From: a virus
IMG/VR virus record: IMGVR_UViG_3300025264_000125
Coordinates: 1 to 22,843 of that record
Direction: 5' to 3' (one strand)
DNA: 22,843 bases
Positions within the stretch are counted from its first letter, which is position 1; every line of letters begins with the position of its first letter. This document shows, piece after piece, positions 1 to 8,770 of the stretch. The translations under genes and the position numbers were made by a program. The notes beneath the pieces were generated by a model, which ran no database searches, was not told where the DNA came from, and was given only the letters and a program-made list of their open reading frames with translations.

Positions 1-186
1 TCTTCTTTGGTTCATTTCAGAAATATTATCATCTATGGTTTGGCTCCTGAACTCTATATCAGTCCGCTTTCCACGTTCTGTCCTTACAAAGCCATAAGGA
101 GATGAAACCTTTTTTACTTCCTCGCATTTGGGACAAGATTCTCCCTTGTAGTACCCATGAGAGGAGCAAATTCCAGCTATCTTCAA
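1..186 (-). CDS. Partial small protein with N-terminal Cys/His zinc-type motif
   Basis: The frame stays open from a TTG at 186-184 to the window edge, so the C-terminus is missing. The start overlaps the stop of the preceding gene as TTGA, a coupling seen repeatedly in this operon. The first residues read LKIAGICSSHGYYKGESCPK, giving C7, H10, C18 and C21, which fits a small zinc-binding knuckle; the rest is charged. Short proteins opening with a C-x2-HG-x7-C-P-x-C signature are common in phage structural operons, but I cannot assign a function. It follows the capsid genes and so may be a virion or head-completion component; that is inference from position only. Confidence 0.6.
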   Translation of the reverse strand, partial: MKIAGICSSHGYYKGESCPKCEEVKKVSSPYGFVRTERGKRTDIEFRSQTIDDNISEMNQRR

Positions 187-722
187 GCGTATCTTCCTGC
201 ACCCATCATAGGAGGAGCACCCATAGGCATTCTACCTCTAGGTCCCTGTCCCTGCTGCATCATGGCCAATAAAGCCATCATCTGAAGCTGGTTCGGACCC
301 CCTGCAGCACCTGCACCACCTACTCCTGGCATTCCCATTCCTGCACCCATCATAGGAGGCGGAGCCATCGGCATTCCCATTCCTGCACCCCTAGGTGGCA
401 TAGCAGCCAACCCTGGCTGTCCGCTAGGTCGCCTTCCTGCACCTGGAACACGTGGTTGAGCACCTACCCCTGGCTGTCCGCTAGGTCGCCTTCCTGCTTG
501 TGCCCTTGGGGGAACCTGTGTGCCCCTACGTGGGCCAACCCCTGGCATAAGAGCCGCCATTAAAGAACTTCCGCTAGGAAGTCGTTGCCCAGCACCTGTA
601 ATTGGTGCACCCTGTCCTTCCATGTATCCTTGCTTGTCTCCAAAAACTTGCAAAAGCTGATTCATCTTCATAGACTGAACCATTGGATTGTCCTGTACAG
701 GACCTGTACCAGCATACGGCAT
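183..722 (-). CDS. Gly/Met/Pro-rich low-complexity repeat protein
   Basis: A 179-residue product with ATG start and GAGAGG ribosome-binding site. Residues 1-50 are ordinary (ending near GDKQGYMEGQGAPITGAG). The rest is dominated by Gly, Met, Pro, Ala, Arg and Gln with internal repeats: AGRRPSGQPG occurs twice and PPMMGAG twice. At DNA level a 30-base unit is repeated exactly (411-440 and 468-497, in frame) and a 22-base unit occurs at 194-215 and 338-359. I see no transmembrane segment or enzyme motif. It lies directly after the capsid genes in the same operon, so a flexible virion-associated protein is possible. Function is unknown; the coding call rests on the clean start, the in-frame repeats and tight packing with its neighbours. 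Confidence 0.75.
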   Translation of the reverse strand: MPYAGTGPVQDNPMVQSMKMNQLLQVFGDKQGYMEGQGAPITGAGQRLPSGSSLMAALMPGVGPRRGTQVPPRAQAGRRPSGQPGVGAQPRVPGAGRRPSGQPGLAAMPPRGAGMGMPMAPPPMMGAGMGMPGVGGAGAAGGPNQLQMMALLAMMQQGQGPRGRMPMGAPPMMGAGRYA

Positions 723-1385: not shown

Positions 1386-2771
1386 CTACAGACTTTCGAC
1401 GTTGTAAAGAGCATGGGTTTCAGGAAGCGTAACTTCCAGACCCGCTTCGGTCAGAATCATATCTTTCCGAAGGTCTTCGTCGTCGTTCTGTACGTTAGTA
1501 ATAACATGAGTATCACGATTGACACCGTTTCCGACAAGCGGACGGTAGGCAACGTTTTTCATATCAGCCATAAGCATGAAGCCGCTAGCAATACCACGGA
1601 AGAGTGGCTCCTTAACCAGATTCATTCGGCCATGGATACTATCAATAACCATGATTGAATGTCCAAAAGTACCCTGTCTTTCTTCGTAGTTCCAACGAAA
1701 TGGAGTAACAGCTGTAGTACCAGCCTGTAAAGACTCGTACAAGAAGTTCCCATCTCCTAGTTTATTAAAGAAAGAAACAACGGGCAATCCGCAAAGAACC
1801 AATCTGTCGCCACTGCCACCGCGAGCGGGGTCAAAAATAACCTCTAAGTCAGAAAGCATTCTGTCATAGGTTAATTCTGCCTGTGCTACGCTTCTGTAAT
1901 ATCCAGCACCTGATGTGTGGGATAAATCAGAATCGTCGGTAGTCGGATTCGTGTTTTTTACAATATGACCAACAAGGCCTTCAGTGTACTGAACGCCAGT
2001 TACACGAGCTTTCTGCCCAAAGAGCAAAGCCCGTTCAATGTCGACCTTATGTTCACGAAGCTTCTCAGCCCAAATACGCTGAAATTCATCAGAGTATCCC
2101 CTGAACCGAGTAGCTAGTGCAGTTCCTGACAATTCCGCAGCAGTTTTGAAAATCTGAGTATAACCGTAGTTATCCTCGATTTCCGCAGACCACACATCAG
2201 GTGCGCCGGAACCCTCAGCAAATGAGGTGCCGATAACCTGACATTGGTCGTTATCTGCTAATGTCGCATAGCCAGTTACGTTGGAGTTTGATACTTCAAC
2301 ACATTTACCTGTGAAGCTTGTATCAGCACCATTGTCTGACGGAGACGACTCAATTCGGAATATTGCCTGTGACCATCCAGCTGTACCATCAACCGTATTA
2401 ACGGAGAAGACCATGCCCTTCACAAGCCAGTCAATACTGCCTGGAGAAGAAGCTGCGTCATCAACCGTAAAAGCATAACTGGTTCCAGCAGTAACAGCAC
2501 CCGTTGGGGCACCATCAATATAGAAATTTCTGGAAGTCCAATTAATCTTAGTACGATTTTCTAGATACCTGAAGACTGAATCATCGGTAGGAACTTTGGC
2601 TACTTTGCTCAGGTAGACGAAAAATGGAGACTCTTCTGGAGCTAATTCAGCTACCCTGTCTCCAAAGTTATATAGTCGTCTACGGTCTGGAGCTTGTCCG
2701 ACATCGGCACTCGTCGCAGCAACAGTTATGTCACTTGATTTAAGTGTGCCAGTGTTATAAGTAACAGCCAT
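1386..2771 (-). CDS. Major capsid protein, HK97-like fold
   Basis: A 461-residue product with ATG start and an ideal AGGAGG site. It lies immediately after the scaffold-like gene and before the decoration-like gene, the standard capsid order. The N-terminal region (about residues 28-75) has RRRLYNFGDRVAELAPEESP, typical of capsid proteins of N4-gp56/SU10-type marine and environmental phages. The middle contains FRGYSDEFQRIWAEKLREHK, compatible with the long spine helix. The C-terminal third has IMVIDSIHGRM and VTLPETHALYNVESL. It would polymerise into the phage head. The assignment rests on gene order, size and capsid-like sequence; the exact capsid family needs a profile search. Confidence 0.85.
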   Translation of the reverse strand: MAVTYNTGTLKSSDITVAATSADVGQAPDRRRLYNFGDRVAELAPEESPFFVYLSKVAKVPTDDSVFRYLENRTKINWTSRNFYIDGAPTGAVTAGTSYAFTVDDAASSPGSIDWLVKGMVFSVNTVDGTAGWSQAIFRIESSPSDNGADTSFTGKCVEVSNSNVTGYATLADNDQCQVIGTSFAEGSGAPDVWSAEIEDNYGYTQIFKTAAELSGTALATRFRGYSDEFQRIWAEKLREHKVDIERALLFGQKARVTGVQYTEGLVGHIVKNTNPTTDDSDLSHTSGAGYYRSVAQAELTYDRMLSDLEVIFDPARGGSGDRLVLCGLPVVSFFNKLGDGNFLYESLQAGTTAVTPFRWNYEERQGTFGHSIMVIDSIHGRMNLVKEPLFRGIASGFMLMADMKNVAYRPLVGNGVNRDTHVITNVQNDDEDLRKDMILTEAGLEVTLPETHALYNVESL

Positions 2772-3625: not shown

Positions 3626-5662
3626 TTATGTTTCCGATTTAGCTGCCGCTTTTTCCTGCTTTCCAAGCATATCAAGCTCTCTCTGAGAAAGCTTGACGGC
3701 AGCGTCCAATTTCGAAGCACGGACCTTTCGGTCTGCGTTCGCATTAGCCTCAATCTCTGTGAGATGAGACTTAAATTTTGAAAGTTCATTGTCTTGTTTG
3801 GCATGCATTGTTTCTCTCTGTGCTGTCTGTAAGTCACCACTCAAGTTTTGAATCTGTTCTTCGAGTTGTGCAACATAATCCCTCATTTGCTGCATTTCAT
3901 CCATTCTTTCCAAGACACCTTCTTTGTCAAAAATTTCTGGGTTTTTCTTTAATACTTCAATTCTGTCAATAAGCCCGAGCTGAAAAGCTTCAAGGTATAC
4001 ACCGAATGTCGCCCACTTGCTTTCTGGAAGAGTGCTTCCTGAAACAATTCTCACATCGTGCTGTCCCACGTTCAGCCTGTCTTTTTGTATATCATTTACA
4101 GCTTGAGAGGAATCGTCATACATATTAACCGTTATCTCGGTCATATTGTTATCAGCCTGTACTAGTGTGAACATTTTTGGAAATGTGTAATGTCCCTTTG
4201 ATATACCATACAATACTTTTCCCAATCGATTAATACTAAATTCTATATCACGTAACTTGGACTTCGGTCTATCGCTTCCAAGTGCTACCATACGTTCCGT
4301 TCCACGCACTGTATCAGGGGCCTTCTCTGGAAACCCGTGAGTCATCTCTGGAAGACCGAAGATAAAATCTATGTAGAACTCTGCCTGTTGAATCAGCCGA
4401 TAGAACTCAGAGGCTAATGGCTGTGGTGCAGGATAATGTGGCTCACCCTGTGTTGTATCAACTTCGATAACCGCATTTGGATTTGCCCACTCACGCTCTA
4501 GGTCATCAAGATTATCAACAGACCCAATCGGTACAATAAGCTTAAGACCTGCAGATGCCTGTGCATGAGAAAGAGCCAAAGACCATAAACGGTTTAAAAG
4601 CTTCTGCATAGGACGTGCACGAGATACATCCGATTTCGGATATGGTGTTCCTGTCCAAATATTTGGAAGTGGTACAATTGGATACATATCAGTATTCAAT
4701 ACAGATTCGTATAGCAGAACCTCTCCAATTGTTGCCGTTACTGCAATTCTTGGCTGTAAAACCTCTTCAAACTGCAAAAACCCCCTTTCAACCATTCCAG
4801 GGTTTTCCTGAAGCATAGTCTGAAAAGCCTGCTCGTCAAGAACGCTTTCCTCTCCAGAGCGTGCGTCAATAACCCGATAATAAGGAACCTTTACAGGATA
4901 AAACCTTTCGAGTATCTGGTATTTATCAGAAGTAAATGTATTAGAATAGCTCTTATCCTTTGTCTCAGCCGGCGTAAACACTTTCATTGAGTTTACATTC
5001 TGAGCGTCTGGATAATCTTCCTCGTTATACGTCGATAGCTCATGTATCACCCCAGGATAGACTTCCTGAGTTTCTGAATCTATCTGGTCACCTAATTGTG
5101 GGTAGAGGTTGACGACCTGTTCGCCTGTCAGTATAGTAGAAAGAATGATGCCCTCGGCATCAGCAAACCACCTGTCCCTGCAGTCAGGTGGGACATAAAC
5201 ACGGAAGGGATTAACATAGGTAAACTTGACATCACCTCTACCGAAATCTGATTCTGCATCAACATATGCATACATATATCCTAGACCCGTAACAGCATAA
5301 TCCGTGATAGCCTGCTTTATCTGATTATCACCGTCTGAAATGTCCCAGACATATCCTAGTATAGAGCGAAACACGGAAGCTACCTGTGCATCCGAGTCCT
5401 CTCTGGGAACCACTGTGAACACGGGGGGTCTTGCAGTAAGAACACTCTTTAGCTTATCAATTGCAGGAGATATCCTATCCATAGGAACATCTGCTTGATT
5501 TCTAGATGCAAGCTCATCTGACTCTTCTGAAGTAAAATGATTGCCAAGAAAAAAATCTAAGTCAGTTCTTGCTTCTGTATCCCAGTCTGTACGTGCATCA
5601 CGCCAGTTACGATAAAGTTCCTGGTTCTGTTCTGCTTCTGGTGCCTTCTCTATTTTAGCCAT
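3626..5662 (-). CDS. Portal protein, P22-like type
   Basis: A 678-residue product forming the dodecameric portal through which DNA is packed. Portal-like features include an N-terminal region with LYRNWRDARTDWDTEARTDL, NQADVPMDRISPAIDKL and VLTARPPVFTVVPREDSDAQ (a conserved wing-region style shared with P22-type portals), then VNPFRVYVPPDC. Residues 565-670 form a long charged coiled coil (MQQMRDYVAQLEEQIQNL). Its length suits large P22-like portals. The start overlaps the stop of the upstream 61-residue gene by 8 bases, and the scaffold gene follows after 73 bases. A C-terminal helix extension of about 100 residues may correspond to a barrel domain. Confidence 0.88.
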   Translation of the reverse strand: MAKIEKAPEAEQNQELYRNWRDARTDWDTEARTDLDFFLGNHFTSEESDELASRNQADVPMDRISPAIDKLKSVLTARPPVFTVVPREDSDAQVASVFRSILGYVWDISDGDNQIKQAITDYAVTGLGYMYAYVDAESDFGRGDVKFTYVNPFRVYVPPDCRDRWFADAEGIILSTILTGEQVVNLYPQLGDQIDSETQEVYPGVIHELSTYNEEDYPDAQNVNSMKVFTPAETKDKSYSNTFTSDKYQILERFYPVKVPYYRVIDARSGEESVLDEQAFQTMLQENPGMVERGFLQFEEVLQPRIAVTATIGEVLLYESVLNTDMYPIVPLPNIWTGTPYPKSDVSRARPMQKLLNRLWSLALSHAQASAGLKLIVPIGSVDNLDDLEREWANPNAVIEVDTTQGEPHYPAPQPLASEFYRLIQQAEFYIDFIFGLPEMTHGFPEKAPDTVRGTERMVALGSDRPKSKLRDIEFSINRLGKVLYGISKGHYTFPKMFTLVQADNNMTEITVNMYDDSSQAVNDIQKDRLNVGQHDVRIVSGSTLPESKWATFGVYLEAFQLGLIDRIEVLKKNPEIFDKEGVLERMDEMQQMRDYVAQLEEQIQNLSGDLQTAQRETMHAKQDNELSKFKSHLTEIEANANADRKVRASKLDAAVKLSQRELDMLGKQEKAAAKSET

Positions 5663-5914: not shown

Positions 5915-7549
5915 CTATGTTCTTGCACCTGTAAGCCAGTTATACTTAAGATATTTTGCAGTTTTTCTACTTCCTTCATTAGCTGGAGAGTTAAAATCGT
6001 CTATATCCATAACTTTACTAGAAGGTGGTTTCTGCCACGCAAAGTAGTTTGCATAGTACAGTGCATCAAGAATATCATCATTCCTTGCCTTCGGGTGTTC
6101 AAATAATTCATCTGTCAATTCCGTCATAGTTCTCTTTATGTATAGCTTCTTTCCGTTTACTATGGGTCCCAATGCTGTTTCTAGCCTATCAGCCTTTTTT
6201 ATTCCTTTCGGTGGTTTAGCACCCTTAAATATTCCTGGAGCCAAACGCCTGTCTGCAAGAGATAACCTATCTGCCATATCTCTTACCATTTCCTGTGCAG
6301 CAACAGTTTCAATAGTAACTCGCCTTACAGGTCCATAATCTTTTGCAAGTTGTATAATCTTCTTTGGAACGTCGAAAGTTGGAATCCTTTCTCGAAAATA
6401 CTCTAGCACATAACGATTTTTATCAGAATCCATTCCCATAACAAGGATTACTTGATAGTCTGACGAAGAAGATGCTGTGTGTGCAACATCAACTCCGAGA
6501 TACACATAAATTGGAATAGCCTTATCATTCGTTATGAGATATGAGAAGTTGTTCTTAGCTTTGTGATGTCCGGCATAATACTGGACTCTGTCAATTTTGA
6601 ACGCTGCATTTGATATGTCACGTGCATCATTCATATATTCCTGTGCAAACTTGTTTACAAGCCCAGCCTCTATAAATTCTTTTTTCTTTTTCTTGAGCTT
6701 GTTATTTGAGAATTGTTCTAACCATATAGACTTCCCACCCTCTATAGCCTGATGAAACATTACATCCCACGGATATGAGCGATTCTCCTTCTTGGCTTCG
6801 GTATATGAGTCATATGTCATTTGAAGAAATGAGTCATAATGTACAATAGTACCAAGAAGCCAAATCCATCCTTCGTGACCAGGTGTCTCTTCAAGCGAGG
6901 GGTATACCGTGGAAACAATCCATCTTTTAATTTCGGCACGCCTTTCTGGTGTTTTGGTGTTTAACTCGGATTCAAAGTCATCCAATACAATGCCAGTGTA
7001 CCGCCTGTCAATCTCAGCACGACCACGCAGACGCTGAGTTGTGCCCTTTGCTATTATCCTATCCCCTTTGGATGTGATAATATCCTTCTCAGTCCATCGA
7101 TTGCCCACCAAGTCTCCGGCAAGGTCCCCAAAATAGTATCTAATGTATTTATTGTTTTCTATGTGTGACTTAATATATTTTAAATGGTCAATGGCCTGTC
7201 CCTGCTCTTCAGCCACCCAAGCAATAAAATGTGGGTCATCCTTTTGTCCGAAGCATATTTTGTGTAAAATGGCAGCTTTGGCAAGAACTGACTTCCCAAA
7301 GCCCCTAGGGACAATATTGCAAATTCTCTCTCCAGGTTGAGTAGATATAAGCTTTTGACCTATTTCATAGTGAAATGGCGGAGATTTGCTCTTTTTAAGG
7401 AAATCCTTAGGTAAAAAGGCTCTTCCAAAGAATATGAGGTCTTCATAGGCCTGCTTTAAAAGCTGGTCTTTTGCATTAAGACTTATCTCTTCTGGTCTTC
7501 TTAACGCCGCTTCTTCTTGTGTCTGTCTTGTTTTTGCTTTTTCTTCCAC
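5915..7549 (-). CDS. terL: Terminase large subunit (ATPase and nuclease)
   Basis: A 544-residue packaging motor. Walker A is VPRGFGKS (80-87), Walker B is TGIVLDDFE (185-193), and the coupling motif is LLGTIVHYDS (231-240). The C-terminal RNase H-like nuclease domain shows GVDVA (Asp354), IETVAAQE (Glu414) and NDDILDALYYANYF with acidic residues 491, 492 and 495. All parts of a functional TerL are present and the length is normal. The start is GTG at 7549, because an in-frame TAA lies four codons upstream and no other start codon follows nearby. The first 49 bases overlap the basic bS22-like ORF in another frame. A promoter follows the stop codon. Confidence 0.95.
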   Translation of the reverse strand: MEEKAKTRQTQEEAALRRPEEISLNAKDQLLKQAYEDLIFFGRAFLPKDFLKKSKSPPFHYEIGQKLISTQPGERICNIVPRGFGKSVLAKAAILHKICFGQKDDPHFIAWVAEEQGQAIDHLKYIKSHIENNKYIRYYFGDLAGDLVGNRWTEKDIITSKGDRIIAKGTTQRLRGRAEIDRRYTGIVLDDFESELNTKTPERRAEIKRWIVSTVYPSLEETPGHEGWIWLLGTIVHYDSFLQMTYDSYTEAKKENRSYPWDVMFHQAIEGGKSIWLEQFSNNKLKKKKKEFIEAGLVNKFAQEYMNDARDISNAAFKIDRVQYYAGHHKAKNNFSYLITNDKAIPIYVYLGVDVAHTASSSSDYQVILVMGMDSDKNRYVLEYFRERIPTFDVPKKIIQLAKDYGPVRRVTIETVAAQEMVRDMADRLSLADRRLAPGIFKGAKPPKGIKKADRLETALGPIVNGKKLYIKRTMTELTDELFEHPKARNDDILDALYYANYFAWQKPPSSKVMDIDDFNSPANEGSRKTAKYLKYNWLTGART

Positions 7550-7596
7550 CGATGTCTCTTAATCTTCTTCCTTCTTTTTTTAAGAACGCTTGACAC
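7501..7596 (-). CDS. 31-residue hyperbasic ORF resembling ribosomal protein bS22/mS38 (AURKAIP1/COX24 family)
   Basis: A frame from GTG (7596-7594) to TAA (7503-7501), too short for ordinary gene callers. The peptide starts VSSVLKKRRKKIKRHRWKKK and ends HKKKRR: 12 Lys and 7 Arg in 31 residues. It aligns without gaps to the AURKAIP1/COX24 pattern I recall for mycobacterial bS22 and mitochondrial mS38 (S-V-[LI]-K-K-R-R-K-[KR]-[MI]-x-[KR]-[HK]-[KR]), including the initial SV and the H-[RK]-aromatic-[KR]-K step. It starts 8 bases after the stop at 7605 and overlaps terL by 49 bases; the conserved half lies outside the overlap. The ribosome-binding site is weak (AGAAG). If real, it probably joins or competes at the host small ribosomal subunit. 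The family match is from memory, not a search. Confidence 0.6.
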   Translation of the reverse strand: MSSVLKKRRKKIKRHRWKKKQKQDRHKKKRR

Positions 7597-7604
7597 TCTT
7601 CTTT

Positions 7605-7817
7605 TTACCTGTTGGCTTCCATACGTGCTTTACACCCCGAAGAAGGCTTATCATGCTTTTTGCCTTGGCTACGCTCTTTGCCGTTGCCTTTTTCTTCCAT
7701 TTCCTGCTTTTCTTTACATAGACGGTCTTTCCTACTCTTTTGTATGGTATCGTACCCCTCCCAATTCACGATATCTATGTCAAGCCAGTCATCTAGCCAT
7801 CTCTCATGCTGAAGCAT
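7605..7817 (-). CDS. Small charged protein of unknown function
   Basis: A 70-residue product starting at an ATG that overlaps the end of the preceding zinc-ribbon gene by 14 bases. Residues 1-25 are acidic and Trp-rich (RWLDDWLDIDIVNWEGYDTI), and residues 26-70 are strongly basic with many Lys, Gly and Ser. No domain is recognised. Its place between the small and large terminase genes and its tight packing support coding, but the upstream ribosome-binding sequence is weak and the Lys-rich tail is low complexity. Confidence 0.5.
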   Translation of the reverse strand: MLQHERWLDDWLDIDIVNWEGYDTIQKSRKDRLCKEKQEMEEKGNGKERSQGKKHDKPSSGCKARMEANR

Positions 7818-8016
7818 AGTCTTCGTTCTCGTAGCCTCCTATGTATATAATATTGCTATCGGAATTGTATATAGTGTGGCATATGGGGCATCTCCACCCG
7901 TAAAACATTCCACCACTGTCAAAAATGGTGTTTTCCAAAACTATCTGAACCTGATTCTCACAAACGTCACACTCAAGCTGGAATTCTGGAAAGACTATTC
8001 GAACCTCACGTGTCAT
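7804..8016 (-). CDS. Zinc-ribbon protein
   Basis: A 70-residue product. Four cysteines in two CxxC pairs (C16-D-V-C19 and C43-P-I-C46) about 24 residues apart form a classic zinc ribbon, within FQLECDVCENQ and FYGWRCPICHTI. I place the start at ATG 8016 because GGAAG lies about 9 bases upstream. A TTG 8 codons earlier (8040) is also open. It overlaps the end of the TerS-like gene and the start of the next small gene, so translation is probably coupled. A nucleic-acid or protein contact role is likely, but the substrate is unknown. Confidence 0.7.
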   Translation of the reverse strand: MTREVRIVFPEFQLECDVCENQVQIVLENTIFDSGGMFYGWRCPICHTIYNSDSNIIYIGGYENEDYASA

Positions 8017-8770
8017 CAATCTCAGCTTCCGCCTGAGCAATCATCTTTGTTTCGCCATCGGATTTCAGTGTTTGTAGCTCTGCCGGGGTAAATCCTTGAA
8101 AGACAGTAAGCGTTTCGGACTTTTTCTCAGCATTCGGCATCATATCGGATACCTTTGCAAGTAGCTCAAGACAGCGAACACGAGAACTTGAGTTGTTCTC
8201 ATCCTCTTTGACTATTGACCATACCTGTTTCAGAATTTCCTCATGTGTGATACCTACTAAAGACAACGCATCTTTTACTTCTTTTCTTATCAACTTCATC
8301 ACCCTTTCTTGTTTTAGTAACGATTTCGACGCTACCTTGGCATATTCATGCTTATCTGTAGGGTAAGCCCTCAAATAGGCATCAGTCGGGTCAACACCCT
8401 TAACGACATACTGAGCAAAGATTAGCTCATTTGCATTAGCATCTCGGTCCGTGGCCTGAACTTCTTTGTGATTCTTGTCGCGAGAGAAGGAATAGAGGTT
8501 CTTTGGTATATTTCCCTCCATTGGTTCTTTGTTCTCGGCAACATAGGTACCTAGCAGTGTACGAACATAATGCTTGTCTTTTCCCGTATTAGCCTTAAAG
8601 GGGCTTTTTTTTAAGACCTGAACAACCTGCTCGTCATCTGTCTGGCACCATTCACCCTCCTCCGCATCCCTCCAGGACTCAATCAGCTTTACATTCTTAT
8701 GATAGAGCCTAAATTCTTTCTCATCCTTGTAAACAAAATGCCTTTTGTCTTTTATTGTCTTAGCCTTCAC
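8006..8770 (-). CDS. terS: Terminase small subunit-like protein
   Basis: A 254-residue product with GTG start. Residues 112-165 carry the small-terminase style helical DNA-binding segment (LIFAQYVVKGVDPTDAYLRA, then a helix with KVASKSLLKQERVMKLI). It resembles the 'F-x-x-x-Y-x-x-G-x-x-x-x-x-A-Y' signature of TerS-type helix-turn-helix regions. Residues 174-212 form another helical stretch (HEEILKQVWSIVKEDEN) that could oligomerise. The first 105 residues are an unusual lysine-rich extension of unknown role. It would recognise the packaging site and hand DNA to TerL, encoded three small genes downstream. Confidence 0.7.
   Translation of the reverse strand: MKAKTIKDKRHFVYKDEKEFRLYHKNVKLIESWRDAEEGEWCQTDDEQVVQVLKKSPFKANTGKDKHYVRTLLGTYVAENKEPMEGNIPKNLYSFSRDKNHKEVQATDRDANANELIFAQYVVKGVDPTDAYLRAYPTDKHEYAKVASKSLLKQERVMKLIRKEVKDALSLVGITHEEILKQVWSIVKEDENNSSSRVRCLELLAKVSDMMPNAEKKSETLTVFQGFTPAELQTLKSDGETKMIAQAEAEIDDT

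Follow-up and report, generated by a model that had tools for sequence, protein, structure and literature searches.

Genomic context of a 31-codon frame at the start of terL

The window, i.e. the whole stretch of viral DNA analysed (22,843 nucleotides, IMG/VR record IMGVR_UViG_3300025264_000125), carries a late operon on the minus strand that runs in the order terS, zinc-ribbon-like protein, small basic ORF, bS22 frame, terL, portal and, further on, major head protein. By coordinate, the features are as follows:

1386..2771, minus strand: major head protein (phrog_1328, E 1e-22)
3626..5662, minus strand: portal protein (phrog_156, E 1e-65)
5915..7549, minus strand: terL, terminase large subunit (PHROG phrog_38, E 7e-71), GTG start at 7549-7547
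7501..7549, minus strand: 49-nt overlap of the bS22 gene with terL, in which the W17 codon TGG gives the TG of the terL start
7501..7596, minus strand: bS22/mS38-family phage gene, 31 aa, GTG start at 7596-7594 and TAA stop at 7503-7501
7549..7596, minus strand: portion of the peptide gene not shared with terL, coding for the N-terminal half with the SSVLKKRRKKIKRH signature (residues 1-15, plus two bases of codon 16)
7580..7750, minus strand: small basic ORF upstream of the bS22 gene, 56 aa (IPYKRVGKTVYV...KRS), with a 17-nt overlap with the bS22 start
7804..8040, minus strand: zinc-ribbon-like small protein, CxxC...CxxC (PHROG matches weak only, best E 0.01)
8006..8770, minus strand: terS, terminase small subunit (phrog_51, E 6e-12; Pfam Terminase_2, E 7e-6)

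The frame of 31 codons and a TAA stop lies at 7596..7501 (-), exactly where the first-pass annotation had put it, and encodes MSSVLKKRRKKIKRHRWKKKQKQDRHKKKRR. Its position between terS and terL, together with the portal and major head protein genes, places it in a genuine phage genome, and 24 contig matches share this context. The terL start codon is made up of the last base of peptide codon 16 followed by TG from TGG, the codon for W17. This arrangement is fixed: in 14 of 14 loci examined the terL start (ATG, GTG or TTG) lies at +47 and the peptide stop at +93. The invariance of W17 among the phage copies is probably due to the fact that TGG supplies the terL start.

The neighbouring small genes have features of their own. 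The zinc-ribbon-like protein between terS and the bS22 gene has one weak PHROG match annotated as ribosome-associated inhibitor A/zinc finger. The small basic ORF at 7580-7750 (IPYKRVGKTVYVKK...) has ATA as its first codon, preceded by a strong Shine-Dalgarno-like GGGAGGGG, and relatives L003-L006 have ATG at the same place; the window phage may use ATA as a start here or begin translation further in. Translational coupling between this ORF and the bS22 gene is possible. Elsewhere in the window, an ORF at 183-722 (-) adjoining the head genes encodes a low-complexity, Gly/Pro/Met-rich protein of 179 aa.

The frame is a conserved gene under purifying selection

We found the frame in about 25 viral contigs with terL identity down to 57%; it recurs in 35 loci, with 14 different DNA alleles and 11 variants of the peptide in all. 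When 2.9 million viral contigs were scanned with degenerate codons for SVxKKRRKK[IM], 27 stretches matched, 24 of which are this bS22 gene. The other three (L088/L090 and L099) we dismissed as chance matches, with the motif truncated or placed differently and, in the case of L088, no Pfam match. The peptide outlasts its neighbour's divergence: the window copy and that of L096 are identical at 29 of 31 residues, while terL of the L091/L096 group is only 57% identical.

Selection acts at the codon level. Codons 2-15, all outside terL, have a pS of 0.67 and a pN of 0.048 (pN/pS 0.07), whereas the same DNA read in the other two frames gives ratios of 3.9 and 10.8. In the overlap region N/S is 0.13 in the peptide frame versus 0.74 in the terL frame (offset +2), and the peptide frame is therefore the constrained one, with the terL N-terminus following from the peptide. 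This bears out the earlier claim that the conserved half lies outside the terL overlap and is no by-product of terminase codons: residues 1-15 are indeed outside, and the peptide frame is the more constrained even within the overlap. GTG and ATG alternate as the peptide start codon at an unchanged position. The Shine-Dalgarno sequence is good in some alleles (GGAG before ATG in L082 and L096, GGAGG in L100) and not in others.

A chance frame, or a by-product of terL or upstream codons, might be suspected from the terL overlap and from the ease with which A-rich DNA gives Lys and Arg codons. This reading is refuted by the codon-level selection, by a start, length and overlap that remain constant between loci with divergent terL genes, and by the homology to cellular genes described below; we give it practically no weight. 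The 31-codon frame is a real, conserved phage coding gene under strong purifying selection.

The expectation that related phages keep the frame was borne out in part. Eleven of 80 terL relatives in IMG/VR carry it at the same place (L001, L003-L007, L024, L025, L031, L047 and L079), but it is missing from L008, L009 and L011 despite terL genes that are 78-80% identical, which makes the bS22 gene an accessory one, gained or lost. Its presence is spread over several clades of the terL tree and has changed state at least three or four times. These absences do not undo the purifying selection seen where the gene is present.

The phage peptide belongs by sequence to the bS22/mS38 family

The Pfam COX24_C profile (PF08213) aligns residues 1-30 of the window peptide with profile positions 1-30 of 33 at 20.4 bits (E 4.8e-4), just below the curated cutoff of 23 bits. 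Sister copies reach 22.1, 23.1 and 24.3 bits, the latter two exceeding the cutoff, and none of 51 composition-matched shuffles of the peptide gives a match. The predicted profile match thus held up beyond Lys/Arg composition, although the window copy taken singly does not pass the cutoff as its sisters do. Equally basic phage peptides of the same region (MPNK... and MPKVGKKK...) have no COX24_C match in Pfam, and composition is therefore not the cause of the bS22 match. With an HMM of 73 cellular members, drawn among the matches listed from pattern-selected sequences that share the phage N-terminal motif and hence favouring the N-terminal block, the peptide scored 57.3 bits uncorrected (29.7 corrected), compared with 47.6 (15.2) for the best of 50,000 shuffles.

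Profile-profile comparison agrees. In hhalign the phage and cellular bS22 profiles align without gaps from residue 1 onwards, at a probability of 97.9 and an E of 4e-13. Against the PDB, the phage profile has as its best match Flavobacterium johnsoniae bS22 (7jil_5) at a weak E of 0.07, and the single peptide sequence has none in phmmer; the cellular bS22 profile recovers mycobacterial bS22 as well as human and yeast mS38, and this ties the phage and the ribosomal groups together.

The peptide also resembles its cellular counterparts in layout. The signature SV(I/L/V)KKRRKK(M/I)..H directly follows the start codon, as in cellular genes, and the length of 31 aa is the mode of the cellular family (28-34 aa, 73 distinct sequences among the matches listed). 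With few exceptions, S3, V4, K6, K7, R8, R9, K10, K11, H15, K19 and R25 are common to phage and cellular genes, along with start and length. Start position, length and the C-terminal half are evidence independent of the pattern selection, the tail being absent from the search pattern; compared with cellular tails, the L047-type C-terminal tail is beaten by 1 of 5000 shuffles and that of the window copy by 116 of 5000. The phage copies depart from the cellular consensus at a few positions: K16 is replaced by R, N or L, the mostly hydrophobic residues 20-21 by K/R and Q/R, and position 17 is W in all phage copies and in 0 of 73 cellular sequences among the matches listed (H or Y, with a few Q, K and I).

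A codon-pattern scan of 84,980 genomes recovered at least 119 family-encoding stretches (L113-L231), mostly free-standing and 28-34 aa long, e.g. MGSVIKKRRKKMRKHKHRKLLARTRHQRRKGK, from Desulfobacterota, Nitrospira, Chloroflexi, Myxococcota and others; in a PF08213 check on 12 genomes, 12 of 12 were above the cutoff. Free-standing bS22/COX24 genes are thus found in many genomes far outside the groups whose structures were considered here (Actinobacteria, Bacteroidota and spirochaetes).

The likeness to AURKAIP1/COX24 (mS38, bS22) noticed by the first-pass annotation is upheld by Pfam, profile-profile comparison, synteny and codon-level selection, and the PDB profile search points weakly the same way; the gapless alignment proposed there extends from the start codon on, against the free-standing 28-34 aa bS22 of Desulfobacterota, Nitrospira, Chloroflexi and others. 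We regard the 31-aa phage peptide as clearly related to the bS22/mS38 family and, by sequence, a member of it.

A second phage group and other peptides in the same slot

A scan with the actinobacterial form of the pattern identified five further contigs (L108-L112) encoding MGSV[VI]KKRRKRMAKKKHRKRLKRQRWA[RK]RNK, which exceed the Pfam cutoff. Two of these were tested for phage status with PHROGs: the 100.6-kb G040 encodes a portal, a head protease and tail proteins, and G043 a terminase and DnaB. A search for Gp23 in the second-group phages (L108-L112) came back empty; their phage identity is settled by the PHROGs portal, protease, tail and terminase matches. In G040 the bS22 gene adjoins genes for S-adenosylmethionine decarboxylase and thioredoxin, away from the terminase. 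The two alleles of this group have many synonymous differences and only two residue differences. G043 also carries a tryptophan-halogenase-like protein (phrog_2928, E 8e-92). This second phage group is unrelated to that of the window and encodes a canonical actinobacterial-type bS22. As we read the sample numbers, L108-L112 (G040-G044) come from fresh water and the window's group is marine, mostly from deep water. Scans of viral contigs for Bacteroidota-type bS22 and of viral sequences for the cellular H-K type pattern found none.

In 30 of the 80 terL relatives the bS22 slot is occupied by an unrelated Lys/Arg-rich peptide of the form MPN(K/S)..K.RKR..R(K/R)L..EN..RKR.AYKAR, located just upstream of terL in loci that include L015-L018, L020-L023, L027 and L032-L035. 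MPNK-type peptide and bS22 never occur together in one locus. The notion of a slot reserved for 30S proteins, in which MPNK would be a bS21-like tail, did not hold up: the bS21 score was no better than that of the best shuffles, hhalign gave a probability of 5.5 with a small test profile, and Pfam gave no match. Given this unrelated basic peptide in other relatives, the slot might conceivably serve a purpose other than a ribosomal one.

Both the position next to terL and the presence of MPNK...RKR... basic peptides in many relatives that lack bS22, never both at once, would suit a basic peptide that serves the terminase, DNA packaging or condensation, and whose likeness to bS22 arose by convergence through Lys/Arg richness. 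Such convergence is hard to reconcile with shuffles that never reach the match (0/51 and 0/50,000), MPNK and MPKV peptides that score nothing, non-basic signature residues and a start position in common with cellular bS22, and tails that match cellular tails beyond the shuffles. Furthermore, the second, freshwater phage group carries bS22 away from any terminase. We consider a packaging peptide improbable and favour homology to the ribosomal protein.

Why the gene would have been missed

The bS22 peptide has no match in PHROGs or NCBIfam, and in a self-test the BLAST low-complexity filter masked the whole peptide query. Since the query is wholly masked, an empty tblastn search against annotated phages says nothing on cultivated phages. 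Taken together, the blindness of PHROGs and NCBIfam to the peptide and the BLAST masking explain why the gene would be missed. The case shows that ribosomal genes go unannotated when they are ~30 codons long, begin with GTG and lie concealed in overlaps.

DISCUSSION

Here we describe a phage gene under purifying selection that is a member, by sequence, of the bS22/mS38 family and overlaps terL in a fixed manner. Our preferred reading, to which we assign a probability of about 75%, is that it encodes a phage-borne bS22/mS38 (AURKAIP1/COX24, PF08213) ribosomal protein that is translated with the late packaging genes and most likely docks in the bS22 pocket of host 30S subunits. The peptide would be made together with the late packaging genes, probably via coupling between the small upstream ORF and terL; because it is tied to terL, it is expected late in infection. 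The product would most likely occupy the 30S pocket formed by 16S h27, h44 and h45, which lies under the decoding centre and also at an intersubunit bridge. It would either fill the site or replace the host copy, and may there modulate initiation, decoding or the association of the subunits during late infection. Expression of the peptide, its timing, its incorporation into host 30S and the direction of its effect on translation are what we infer for this model. The finding suggests that these viruses alter protein synthesis in the cells they infect. As to the host, we searched by terL in a single Chloroflexi class around a Dehalococcoidia MAG (393 genomes), in the phylum of locus L168 (379 genomes) and in that of locus L152 (396 genomes), and retrieved no close terL.

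The same pocket could be targeted to a different end. A bS22 mimic might act as an inhibitor that floods the 30S pocket, or blocks translation as free peptide, and so shuts off the host late in infection instead of creating specialised ribosomes. Free C. acnes bS22 inhibits the growth of bacteria and, at 80 uM, cuts E. coli cell-free translation by ~80% (PMC10085706), and the phage copy is off the cellular consensus at positions 16, 17, 20 and 21. However, working ribosomes are required for late phage genes, and bS22 expression is linked to that of terL; the family's invariant residues are also retained, which fits normal docking. We regard inhibition as unlikely. It is also conceivable, at a very low probability, that the phage turned a bS22 homologue to non-ribosomal use, for example to bind other RNA: family membership is no proof of function, and both eL41 and bS22 have been reported to act outside ribosomes (PMC10085706), yet the extreme conservation across divergent phages fits the conserved rRNA pocket.

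Taking docking in the 30S pocket as our working model, we tentatively propose, while not holding it to be the likelier outcome, that at least two unrelated phage lineages remodel the region of the decoding centre and intersubunit bridge late in infection via their own bS22, giving a specialised ribosome that would favour phage mRNAs. In the marine lineage, the gene embedded across the terL start would lock this production to packaging.

Ribosomal proteins encoded by phages have been described before, and so has the bS22 family; for bS22 in viruses we found no earlier report in the literature searched. According to the main text of a survey, 14 kinds of ribosomal protein are found in viruses, and E. 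coli ribosomes take up the bS21 and bL12 encoded by phages (PMC6375957); phage-encoded examples described there and elsewhere include bS21, bL12, bL9, bL31 and bL33 (PMC6375957, PMC9723584). Neither S22 nor AURKAIP1 is mentioned in that main text (PMC6375957). A literature search combining bS22 with phage terms, incomplete in coverage, likewise returned no report of a phage bS22, in line with the first-pass annotation, which had named none. The new gene resembles the known phage ribosomal proteins in being carried by phage, under purifying selection, aquatic and probably late. The known ones are mostly loosely bound and exchangeable, whereas the bS22 pocket is buried beneath the decoding centre. 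To our knowledge, and according to the literature searched, phage bS22 would be the first aimed at this pocket.

Among the other occupants of the slot before terL, the MPNK... peptides are similarly small and Lys/Arg-rich, and differ in having no COX24_C match. The bacterial bS22 proteins of mycobacteria, C. acnes, F. johnsoniae and Borrelia are, like the phage gene product, free-standing, basic and ~30 aa long, with the same start and length and the signature M[G/S]SV[I/V/L]KKRRKK[M/I]..H. Borrelia bS22, a short, formerly unannotated essential-gene candidate, even shares with the phage gene the GUG start and the missed annotation (PMC10618245). Unlike bacterial bS22, the gene is phage-encoded, overlaps terL, and has W17 in place of H/Y and K/R plus Q/R at positions 20-21. 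In C. acnes, the cavity between 16S h27, h44 and h45 accommodates bS22, which forms an intersubunit bridge by contacting 23S H67 (PMC10085706). Mitochondrial mS38 (AURKAIP1/Cox24) belongs to the same Pfam family and has the same Lys/Arg-rich domain, placed C-terminally; it differs from phage bS22 in its long N-terminal extension and its organelle location. Yeast mS38 constrains upper h44, and in its absence initiation on COX1-3 mRNAs is selectively impaired (PMC6582356). Since mS38 selectively supports initiation on certain mRNAs, phage bS22 would present a concrete case for virus-specialised ribosomes.
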